From Dolichospermum flos-aquae CCAP 1403/13F (GTDB lineage: Bacteria; Cyanobacteriota; Cyanobacteriia; Cyanobacteriales; Nostocaceae), in contig NZ_CP051206.1 in NCBI RefSeq assembly GCF_012516395.1, positions 558,001 through 622,000 of the forward strand: 64,000 nucleotides of DNA, in the 5' to 3' direction. Each line of letters starts with the position of its first letter. Positions within the stretch are counted from its first letter, which is position 1. The notes below the pieces were generated by a model. It saw only the letters and a list, made by a program, of their open reading frames with translations. It was not told the DNA's origin and made no database searches. The position numbers were made by a program, and so were the translations under genes. This document shows positions 10,884-22,921 of this stretch, in pieces.

Positions 10884-10956
10884 GTAGGGGCGAAGCATTT
10901 GGAAGATAAATTATCGGTCATTGCCAGAAATAGTTCTCCAAATGCTTCGCCCGTAC
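10884..10956. repeat. 73-bp palindromic element, copy 1
   Basis: A hairpin-forming unit with ends GGGGCGAAGCATTTGGA and TCCAAATGCTTCGCCC. Copies of the same 73-bp length lie at 21775-21847 and 22849-22921 in the reverse orientation. All three are embedded in heptamer-like (tgacaac)n sequence. It separates devB from devC. Confidence 0.9.
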
Positions 10957-13895: not shown

Positions 13896-14831
13896 ATGAA
13901 AGATTGGTGGCAAGATAATTTTCCTCAAGGACGGCAATATCTCGTTATTCCTGATGCTCAAGGTTATCCAATTCAAATAGCTTATGGTGAAAAAGGTCGA
14001 GGTAAACCGCTAATTCTATTACATGGTTTAGGCAGTTGGAGTTATAATTGGCGACATAGTATTGAACCATTATCTCAACATTTTCGGGTAATTTGTTGTG
14101 ATTTTAAAGGTTTTGGTTTTTCCGAAAAACCTGTATCTCGTCGAGAAGAAAATGGACATCAAATTATTGAATTAAAACGCATTATTCAAGCTTTATGTGA
14201 TGAACCACCCATAATAGTAGCAGAATCTATAGGAGCATTAATTTCTTTAGGATTAGCTGGTAAAAATCCTGATTTAATCGGACGTTTAGTAGTAATTAAT
14301 GCCCCTATTTTTACAGAAAGCTTACCTCATTGGTCTATGGGTTTACTGGCACAAACACCAATAGAGATTATCCATGCAGTTGATAATTTACGTCTCGCAT
14401 ATTGGTTTGCACCTTTAGTTAGAAAAGTTATGGGAACAGAAAGACGGAAGGTATTGTATGATCCTTCCCTGTTAACAGAGGAAGATATTTACTGGATTAC
14501 TTACCCATTTATTGAAATTCCGGGAACTTTGGTAAAAGTTGCGGAAGATCTACAAATTGCTGCTCAAGAAATTGAGAATTTGCGAACGAATCAGCCAAGT
14601 ATGTTGAGTAATATTCAAAAAAATCTCAAAAATATTGAATGTCCAACTTTGGTATTATGGGGAGATCAAGATAGTTGGTTTCCTGCTAGTCATGGGGAAA
14701 AACTACATCAACATCTTCCCAATTCTCGGTTACAAATTTTGCAAAATTGCTATCATGATGCCTCAACTGGTTCTTCTACTGTTGTGAATGCCGCAATTTT
14801 GGAGTTTTTAAAAGATACCAATTTCTTTTAA
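13896..14831 (+). CDS. Alpha/beta-fold hydrolase
   Basis: 311 residues of the alpha/beta hydrolase fold: oxyanion-hole motif LLHGLGSWSYNWR (about 45), FKGFGFSEKP (about 73), nucleophile elbow VAESIGALISLGLAG (Ser near 108, with Ala where the first Gly of GxSxG is usual), acid LVLWGDQDSWFPA and catalytic His in NCYHDAS. Substrate unknown; esterase or epoxide-hydrolase-like activity is plausible. It follows the DUF4112 gene by 16 bp, and its stop overlaps the stop of the convergent RAYT gene by 3 bp. Confidence 0.85.
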   Translation: MKDWWQDNFPQGRQYLVIPDAQGYPIQIAYGEKGRGKPLILLHGLGSWSYNWRHSIEPLSQHFRVICCDFKGFGFSEKPVSRREENGHQIIELKRIIQALCDEPPIIVAESIGALISLGLAGKNPDLIGRLVVINAPIFTESLPHWSMGLLAQTPIEIIHAVDNLRLAYWFAPLVRKVMGTERRKVLYDPSLLTEEDIYWITYPFIEIPGTLVKVAEDLQIAAQEIENLRTNQPSMLSNIQKNLKNIECPTLVLWGDQDSWFPASHGEKLHQHLPNSRLQILQNCYHDASTGSSTVVNAAILEFLKDTNFF

Positions 14832-15577
14832 ATAAATCTGATTGGATTTTTATTAGATAATAATTGCATTGTCTGAAAATTAGCAGGATTTTCCTGATCT
14901 TTTACCCAATTTATCGGATTGTTGACAATGTATTCACGAATATTATTTAATGCTTCCTCATTGTGGATAATATGTTCATAATAATTACGCTGCCAAATTA
15001 CATTTCCTTTAGCTTTATTCATCCGATTAATTTGGCGTGTAGAAACTGATTTATAATTTTGAGTTATTGCCGCCAAAGATTGTGGTTTTGTCCCATTAAT
15101 TTTAATTGTTTCACCCGTATAGACTGTAGGGGCGAAGCATTGGCTTGATAAATTTTGTTGTTGTGAAAAATCTTGATTTGCCAATGCTTCGCCCGCCACC
15201 TCAGAAAACAATTGTGAAAAATCTTGATTTGCCAATGCTTCGCCCACCACCTCAGAAAACGATTGTGAAAAATCTTGATTTGCCAATGCTTCACCCGCCA
15301 CCTCAGAACTCTCAATGATAATAATCCCATGTAAATGATTGGGCATGATCACAAATTCATCTAACTCGACATTTTTAAAATATCGAGGAATAGATAACCA
15401 AGAACCCCTTGCTATCTCGCCATTTGTATTTAATTTTATTTCACCATCTACAATTTCACCAAATAAACAATTACGTTGATGGGTGCAAATGGTGACAAAA
15501 TATGCTCCCTGTTGAGTATAGTCGTATACTTTTAATCGGATGGAACGGCGGTGGTGAATATTGGAATTGTAGGGCAT
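14828..15577 (-). CDS. REP-associated tyrosine transposase (RAYT, IS200-like fold)
   Basis: A Y1 single-strand DNA transposase: start motif RRSIRLKVYDYTQQGAYFVT, the HUH metal-binding pair in MPNHLHGIIII, and a C-terminal helix with the candidate nucleophile Tyr in WQRNYYEHIIHNEEAL followed by REYIVNNPINW. RAYTs are domesticated IS200 relatives that move REP hairpins in trans. Between the HUH strand and the C-terminal helix lies an insert of about 50 residues: three 17-residue repeats (EVAGEALANQDFSQ-type) encoded by REP-like DNA, a rare case of REP units inside the RAYT frame. A REP array lies just upstream. The core motifs look intact, so activity is possible. Confidence 0.85.
   Translation of the reverse strand: MPYNSNIHHRRSIRLKVYDYTQQGAYFVTICTHQRNCLFGEIVDGEIKLNTNGEIARGSWLSIPRYFKNVELDEFVIMPNHLHGIIIIESSEVAGEALANQDFSQSFSEVVGEALANQDFSQLFSEVAGEALANQDFSQQQNLSSQCFAPTVYTGETIKINGTKPQSLAAITQNYKSVSTRQINRMNKAKGNVIWQRNYYEHIIHNEEALNNIREYIVNNPINWVKDQENPANFQTMQLLSNKNPIRFI
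15127..15300. repeat. REP units within the RAYT gene
   Basis: TGCCAATGCTTCGCCC-type units start at 15179, 15230 and 15281, exactly 51 bp (17 codons) apart. An inverted copy, GGGGCGAAGCATTGGC, sits at 15129. The outer pair can form a long hairpin across 15129-15195. Unit length keeps the reading frame of the host gene. Confidence 0.9.
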
Positions 15578-15612: not shown

Positions 15613-15860
15613 GGAAAGGGTGAAGCATTCGCCAATATAGTTTATCTGTTTGTTCCATATTTTTCTCGTGGAAAGGGTGAAGCATTCGCCAATATAGTTT
15701 ATCTGTTTGTTCCATGTTTTTCTCGTGGAAAGGGTGAAGCATTCGCCAATATAGTTTATCTGTTTGTTCCATGTTTTTCTCGTGGAAAGGGTGAAGCATT
15801 CGCCAATATAGTTTATCTGTTTGTTCCATATTTTTCTCGTGCGAATGCTTCACCCCTACA
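15613..15860. repeat. Four-unit 57-bp tandem REP array closed by an inverted unit
   Basis: Units begin at 15613, 15670, 15727 and 15784. Each carries GGGTGAAGCATTCGCC followed by 41 bp that barely vary. The array ends with an inverted half (GCGAATGCTTCACCCC, about 15842-15858), so any unit can pair with the end. Open frames across it on both strands are products of the repeat. It lies just upstream of the RAYT start. Confidence 0.9.
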
Positions 15861-21546: not shown

Positions 21547-21657
21547 TTTTGTGATTAGTCAGTGGTCAGTTGTCAGTGGTCAGTTGTTAAGAATATATAC
21601 TTAATAATTGGTTGTTGATTATGGACTTTTATTTTTGACTAATAACTATTCCCATTT

Positions 21658-21694
21658 ACAGGCCAGCGCGTTCTGCGTGGCCTGTATTTTATTT
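21658..21694 (+). terminator. Rho-independent-type terminator after tsf
   Basis: ACAGGCCA and TGGCCTGT form an eight-pair stem, extended inside by GCGC/GCG, followed by attttattt. It lies 112 bp after the tsf stop. Confidence 0.75.
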
Positions 21695-21774
21695 AAATGA
21701 TGATTATTTATTCAAAATCCGTATATTTGTACTACAGAAAGCAACTAACAACTGACAACTGACAACTAACAACT

Positions 21775-21847
21775 GTACGGGCGAAGCATTTGGAGAACTA
21801 TTTTTGGCAATGACCGATAATTTATCTTCCAAATGCTTCGCCCCTAC
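21775..21847. repeat. 73-bp palindromic element, copy 2
   Basis: Reverse orientation relative to the copy at 10884; same length and nearly the same sequence as the copy at 22849. It is flanked on both sides by (tgacaac)n-type heptamer repeats covering about 21740-21895. Confidence 0.9.
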
Positions 21848-21905
21848 TGACAACCGACAACCGACAACTGACAACTGACAACCGACAACTAATTAGCTTA
21901 AAGTT

Positions 21906-22848: not shown

Positions 22849-22921
22849 GTACGGGCGAAGCATTTGGAGAACTATTTTTGGCAATGACCGATAATTTATC
22901 TTCCAAATGCTTCGCCCCTAC
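22849..22921. repeat. 73-bp palindromic element, copy 3
   Basis: Same orientation as copy 2, 1074 bp away, with matching ends GGGCGAAGCATTTGGA and TCCAAATGCTTCGCCC. The two copies bracket the hypothetical gene 21906-22742. Confidence 0.9.

Follow-up and report, generated by a model that had tools for sequence, protein, structure and literature searches.

The window analysed here (the whole stretch of DNA, 64,000 nucleotides from Dolichospermum flos-aquae CCAP 1403/13F) belongs to a genome of 5.2 Mb in 2 contigs (G000) and carries on its minus strand a REP-associated transposase gene, with REP sequences both inside its own reading frame and just upstream of it. The features of the locus are as follows.

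14828..15577, minus strand: TnpA-REP (RAYT) gene of the subclass 2.4 type, an ORF of 249 aa with an ATG start.
15329..15340, minus strand: HuH motif N80-H81-L82-H83, of which N80, H81 and H83 are invariant in a 63-row alignment.
15161..15313, minus strand: three in-frame 51-bp units (17 codons), each with the REP core GGGYGAAGCATTGGC, from repeat searches.
15126..15144, plus strand: inverted REP (GTAG foot and GGGCGAAGCATTGGC) closing the in-gene array, from the sequence and inverted repeats.
14930..14932, minus strand: codon of tyrosine Y216 (motif YIVNNP), invariant in the same alignment.
15613..15841, plus strand: four 57-bp units with the core GGGTGAAGCATTCGC, just upstream of the gene, from repeat searches.
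15841..15859, minus strand: inverted footed REP closing the upstream array, where the plus strand reads GCGAATGCTTCACCC followed by CTAC, from the sequence and inverted repeats.

The 249-aa ORF matched Pfam Y1_Tnp at 31.1 bits (cut-off 23) and NCBIfam NF047646 (REP-associated tyrosine transposase) at 65.7 bits, the latter in two stretches and under the cut-off of 80. An alignment of 63 rows was built from the window protein and 62 of 76 related ORFs, leaving out 10 ORFs without a suitable start codon, three for length, and L031; its invariant positions include M78, P79, N80, H81, H83, W195, Q196, R197, Y199, Y216, N220 and P221. The protein has the marks of TnpA-REP subclass 2.4 (Quentin et al., 2018; PMC6006769), entered in the table of that paper as "2.4 (4)", which corresponds to Bertels group 4. 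The invariant W195-Q196 pair precedes the tyrosine motif, which has the subclass form YIxNNP (YIVNNP at 216-221), and the insertion between HuH and tyrosine is variable, with 50 to 477 aa from HuH to WQ across the 76 related ORFs. The window gene also contains in-frame REPs. Its HuH motif, NHLH at 80-83, agrees with the NH[IFV]H of the subclass at the asparagine and both histidines, the leucine lying outside I/F/V. The closest named match of the transposase, among the matches listed, was in Trichormus sp. NMC-1 (81% identity over the best segment). The gene is thus a TnpA-REP (RAYT) gene resembling subclass 2.4, and its product is predicted from its family to be a HuH/tyrosine single-strand endonuclease; an earlier note on this DNA, which had called it a REP-associated-type transposase, is supported by the Pfam and NCBIfam matches and by the HuH and tyrosine motifs.

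The reading frame stays open across the three direct units (15161-15211, 15212-15262 and 15263-15313), which encode residues 89-139, the other two having 96% and 90% identity to the first. Tandem Repeats Finder scored the in-gene array at 275, with a period of 51 and 2.9 copies. The HuH motif and Y216 bracket both the units and the inverted footed REP; on the coding strand the insert reads as REP arm plus spacer, three times head to tail, and then one inverted GTAG-footed REP. The inverted unit (15126-15144) has 15 nt perfectly complementary to two of the three direct units, and the third has one base altered in its core. The upstream array (15613-15859) begins 36 bp before the ATG and is built likewise, from four 57-bp copies with a slightly different core. 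What the earlier note had read at this locus, namely three 17-codon REP units in frame between the HuH motif and the tyrosine, an inverted unit able to pair with them, and an adjacent array with a slightly varied core, was all confirmed. Within the stretch checked, the REP array at the window gene is limited to the 5' flank; on the downstream side there were zero footed hairpins in 300 bp and zero GAAGCATT-type REPs in 1.5 kb (L001).

As RNA, the insert (15110-15330) had a folding energy of -61 kcal/mol, compared with -52.8 on average for shuffled sequences (z -2.0; 5 of 200 shuffles were as good or better). This somewhat better fold, and the footed array just upstream of the start codon, would fit autoregulation, with the in-gene hairpins limiting expression either in the mRNA or by offering the enzyme a place to bind its gene, and the tandem copies tuning it. 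However, the z-score is modest, and the 1, 3 and 24 copies seen in close relatives (below) are hard to square with fine tuning, so that we regard this explanation as unlikely.

In close relatives the number of units differs. The orthologue in G004 (213 aa) has a single inverted REP pair in its loop, without 51-bp tandem copies, whilst the loop of the NMC-1 orthologue holds 24 units (GEALAKQDF x24), and its frame is open through 607 aa. The tandem 51-bp amplification looks recent, giving a series of 1 (G004), 3 (window) and 24 (NMC-1), all in frame. As 23 of the NMC-1 51-bp units are letter-identical, and so hard to assemble, the tandem units could be put down to an assembly artefact; we find this scarcely credible, as the three units of the window genome differ from each other and the in-gene REP is at the same place in two other records. 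Outside the loop, dN/dS over 159 codons was 0.247, 0.197 and 0.187 for the three orthologue pairs, which indicates past purifying selection on the enzyme core despite the insert. The NMC-1 protein retains the tyrosine, but in a motif YTVSNP instead of YIVNNP and with a shorter C-terminus, so that its full function is not certain. In G004 (L002, 1565-1599), directly after the in-gene REP, the foot-bearing end CCCCTACA occurs four times at a 9-bp spacing, in frame (TPTTPTTPT).

The earlier note had described the gene as having taken REPs into its coding sequence. The in-frame REPs are present and their tandem copies look recent, but a recent capture of them is improbable. Capture of the neighbouring REPs is not favoured by the cores, as the in-gene core has TTGGC and the upstream core TTCGC, nor by the GAAGC-type heads found in the same loop of distant relatives. 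Such a REP was seen in Elainella and in two deltaproteobacterial (Geobacteraceae-type) relatives, with an AAAGC variant in Fischerella; because these occupy the same loop in distant relatives, the REP is probably old in the gene lineage.

We surveyed the site more widely in 79 loci, taken from the top 80 of at least 579 hits that the window protein gave in named genomes; 76 ORFs were parsed (L105, L107 and L109 were not). Among the hosts sampled are Cyanobacteria, Chloroflexi, Thermus, Nitrospira and several Deltaproteobacteria. Under a strict rule (a GT[AG]G foot followed immediately by at least 7 perfect pairs, with a loop of up to 60 nt), a footed hairpin was present between HuH and Y in 69/76 ORFs of this best-match sample and lacking there in 7/76. 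Dinucleotide-shuffled loops gave a mean of 1.8/76 and a maximum of 4/76 (20 rounds). Elsewhere in the genes, footed hairpins were found in 3/76 before HuH and 8/76 after the loop, and in the flanks in 27/76 within 300 bp upstream and 17/76 within 300 bp downstream. In 37/76 the loop had a hairpin and neither 300-bp flank did, the reverse (flank, not loop) was seen in 2/76, and 5/76 had neither. Tandem repeats were present in 28/76 loops, compared with 1/76 N parts and 5/76 C parts. Among near relatives, 10 of the 16 parsed loci (of 30, the window's own included) had a loop hairpin, the other six having shorter loops, of 41-52 aa.

As a contrast sample, the best 30 loci in the phylum for NF047646 were taken, of which 19 were parsed and 11 were not. 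A REP foot was found in 0/19, with loops of 47-52 aa and mostly DH[LIF]H and YIHxNP motifs, in a sample that is biased in that long loops split the NF047646 match and the window gene is absent from the four G000 places listed. This shows, at the level of sequence, that the feature is missing in another subclass type and says nothing on how frequent it is.

The palindrome is kept whilst the peptide varies. In 32 loops the element has the form GTAGGG...CCCTAC with 16-17 nt between, 28 or 29 nt in all. At the seven inner positions of each arm, which the pattern leaves free, 98.3% were paired, in 25 distinct sequences, as compared with 53.8% on average and 64.0% at most in 2000 shuffles; the 25 stems come from related sequences and are not independent, which overstates the number of events. 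Two reading frames are used in these double-foot loops, 23 giving VGA... and 9 giving xRG...; the third is impossible in an open frame because the TAG of GTAG would be read as a stop. The resulting peptides differ, as in VGATHASPL, VGAQHAAPL, CRGGSRTAPT and VGAGFKPAPT. It is the DNA hairpin that is conserved, rather than the encoded peptide. Retention of the palindrome may reflect selection, correction between its two arms or repeated replacement by new REPs. That the insert is instead a functional peptide domain, with its REP similarity secondary, would agree with the open reading frame that each of the three orthologues keeps through it; against the differing peptides and two frames of the 32 loops, whose DNA palindrome is kept, and the 50 to 477 aa span of the stretch from HuH to WQ in the 76 ORFs, we consider it very improbable.

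We then compared the REPs of the locus with those dispersed in this and other genomes. In genomes carrying the gene, the 12-mer GGGYGAAGCATT occurred 444 times in G000, 230 times in G004 and 89 times in NMC-1 (25 of these within the gene). Of 58 other genomes scanned, 57 had at most 15 copies and G043 had 80; in a further count, the genomes of L032, L034, L033 and L036 had 13, 21, 1 and 0. In G043, which is of the same order, nothing matched the window protein at E 1e-3, and its 80 copies may be orphan REPs, or the transposase may have been lost or have diverged. The dispersed form GGGCGAAGCATTTGGA was present in 383 copies in G000, in both orientations, with 2 in G004 and 1 in NMC-1, its near-privacy to G000 being judged among five genomes; the family looks like a recent burst sharing the 12-mer core. 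This expanded REPIN differs from the exact in-gene form in G000. The exact form at the RAYT locus, GGGYGAAGCATTSGC, had 11 copies in G000; nine belong to the locus of the window gene, and the remaining two form a pair elsewhere. It is plausible, and unproven, that the window gene drives the GGGCGAAGCATTTGGA burst. The refuting condition set by the earlier note, equal abundance of the repeats in relatives lacking this RAYT, thus has a mixed outcome, and REP copies track the gene only in part: numbers are high in the three carriers and at most 15 in 57 of 58 others, but G043 has 80 copies without a match and GGGCGAAGCATTTGGA is nearly private to G000.

G000 has four other RAYT-like matches, three of them with a parsed ORF. 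One of the three has NHYH/YIHLNP, the motifs of subclass 2.1 (listed without REPs by Quentin et al., 2018, PMC6006769, in the available part of the paper), and one has subclass 2.6 motifs. A GAAGCATT REP within one kilobase was absent for all three, and a REPIN pair lies some 1.3 kb from the fourth, unparsed match.

Head-to-tail pairs were not confined to the gene. G000 has 24 of them, five at the locus of the window gene and the rest at 12 other places, with repeated spacings of 67 and 70 bp. NMC-1 (G080) has long arrays at C12:403363-404567 and C12:887688-889320, with 16 copies at a 76-bp spacing and 29 at a 56-bp spacing respectively, and each has one inverted copy at an end. The in-gene spacing of 51 is divisible by 3, unlike those of 67, 70, 76 and 56; this is only suggestive, as the upstream spacing of 57 is divisible by 3 too. 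A similar REP array is shared by L146 (G000:C1:60888-61008) and L155 (G005:C1:360218-360394), with identical preceding bases in the stretch compared and two versus three direct units; these are probably one locus with differing copy number. Further copies of the dispersed REPIN GGGCGAAGCATTTGGA were seen within the window at 10884-10956, 21775-21847 and 22849-22921. In a sample of 14 dispersed REPIN sites (L140-L153; in the window, 21558-21890), many were inside short tandem repeats of heptamer type (TGACAAC / GTCAGTT), as if these served as landing sites, and 2/14 of the sampled G000 sites lay within an open frame of at least 100 aa.

To return to the REP inside the gene, its inheritance was followed on a gene tree. 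The window gene pairs with that of Elainella, and this pair joins Fischerella and two genes of Deltaproteobacteria, every head in the group being GAAGC or AAAGC. In 34/58 cases the REP head of the nearest tree neighbour had at most 1 mismatch, compared with 10% of random pairs. Head and gene tree agreed more than expected by chance, with a weak correlation (Mantel r 0.16; 2/1000 permutations as high), and since any piece of a gene follows the gene tree, co-inheritance alone shows no function. By these comparisons REP and gene tend to travel together, as would be true of any segment of a gene.

Donor copies elsewhere were sought with exact matches to four 13-mer head types in 34 genomes, many of them draft MAGs, with one head counted per gene. 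By this count, which misses sequence variants and any dispersed copies of another head from that loop, the exact in-gene head had zero copies outside the loop in 9/21 on-type genes and zero beyond the locus (about 3 kb each side) in 11/21, with up to 23 outside copies in the others. Three of the nine private cases are named strains and not MAGs (Caldimonas manganoxidans, Thermus arciformis and Thermus scotoductus). Variant double-foot REPs occur elsewhere in the genome (G061) of L038, one of the nine. A double-foot search allowing 2 mismatches in 26 genomes gave further matches in private-case genomes (7 in G065 and 4 in G068), but it used a single fixed length, its backwards-pattern control was as high or higher in most genomes, and it was not used for counts.

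The expectation that each genome would be richest in its own in-gene head type was set aside, as the matrix of four heads by 34 genomes was not clean. The genome of L044 (G090) has 177 GAAGC heads, a type absent from its surveyed gene, and that of L071 (G064) has 75 GCAGC heads although the gene carries GACGC, pointing to a possible second transposase or a change of type. The genome of L054 has 13 GCAGC heads, and the AACCC head was seen at low counts in several off-type genomes.

These counts bear on a passive origin, the view put forward by Quentin et al. (2018; PMC6006769), in which REPs insert widely and the loop is the sole site in the gene able to take up in-frame DNA at little cost. Their structural model places the variable region at the periphery, with perhaps little impact according to the available text, intragenic REPs are known from unrelated genes of other species (PMC3733652), and the same REP forms arrays at other sites in the genome. 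Set against this are the lack of an exact donor head elsewhere in 9/21 genes and beyond the locus of about 3 kb in 11/21 (as exact 13-mers), the great regularity of the hairpin (69/76) with arms that remain palindromic though the stems differ, and the 2/14 of sampled dispersed G000 sites that fall in an open frame. We consider passive insertion possible, if on the unlikely side.

The reading that we prefer, with a probability of roughly 0.7, is that a lineage-old in-frame REP sits in the variable loop as the enzyme's putative own recognition site, that its hairpin and not its peptide is kept, and that its tandem copies come from slippage or processing. The gene lineage would carry this REP in the stretch from the HuH strand to the tyrosine helix, where a DNA hairpin can persist because the encoded peptide is free to vary widely in sequence and length. 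As the enzyme's recognition site, the REP would travel with the gene and so couple enzyme and substrate. Tandem copies of REP arm plus spacer would arise by slippage or hairpin processing in single-stranded DNA, as elsewhere in the genome, and within the gene only multiples of 3 would survive. On the sequence side, this reading draws on the in-frame site, its high regularity in the branch, palindromes that are nearly perfect though their stems differ, agreement of stem and tree, purifying selection on the core and a variable copy number. A bolder version, which we put forward tentatively and hold to be doubtful, would make the REP a built-in self-address under DNA-level selection, its coupling kept through horizontal transfer even without another exact copy in the genome; the enzyme would act on or repress its own gene, and the head-to-tail units would be products of this self-action.

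How RAYTs and REPs are matched is an open question, for which an embedded hairpin that is kept palindromic while the peptide varies offers a direct handle. Under the preferred reading, the in-gene hairpin would predict the substrate of each enzyme from its sequence alone. The series of 1, 3 and 24 copies in close relatives is also a natural experiment on the growth of REP arrays.

The earlier note knew of no described example of such a gene, and on this point it has been overtaken. Quentin et al. (2018; PMC6006769) describe in-frame REPs, as a rule located between HuH and Y, as a trait unique to TnpA-REP subclass 2.4; in the part of the text available such insertions are predominant, and short repeats in the variable region are mentioned. 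The window gene shares with the subclass as presented there the WQ pair, YIxNNP, NHxH, the variable HuH-Y insertion and the in-frame REPs, along with long, double-foot REPs and Cyanobacteria among the hosts. It differs from that description in the tandem 51-bp amplification, with 1, 3 or 24 copies in close relatives, and in that the surveyed in-gene REP is more regular than the flanking REPs and sometimes lacks an exact copy elsewhere. These points on tandem pattern and regularity may overlap with figures S6, S7 and S10 of the same paper. In the accessible portion of a 2021 paper on TnpA-REP recognition of REPs (PMC8266576) we found no passage on in-gene REPs, and we found no later study of them after Quentin et al. 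(2018) in the open-licence literature.

Among other systems, the RAYTs flanked by REPs of Nunvar et al. (2010; PMC2817692) likewise have a HuH/Y transposase adjoining REPs; compared with the arrangement given in the part of that paper available, the window gene has REPs upstream only, within the stretch checked, and others inside the gene. Intragenic GTAG/CGTC REPs and the Rickettsia RPE (PMC3733652, 2013) are, as far as the accessible text goes, palindromic repeats in host genes of many unrelated kinds; here too the repeats lie inside a protein gene, and the host gene is itself the REP-type transposase. REPINs (PMC3116915, 2011), in the sections available, are inverted REP pairs dispersed in the genome, like the one form seen here, whose 383 cores run in either orientation, whereas the in-gene copy of the window is a head-to-tail array closed by a single inverted unit. 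The kind of gene described here is thus already known, if little studied, and its unusual part is the tandem copy series.
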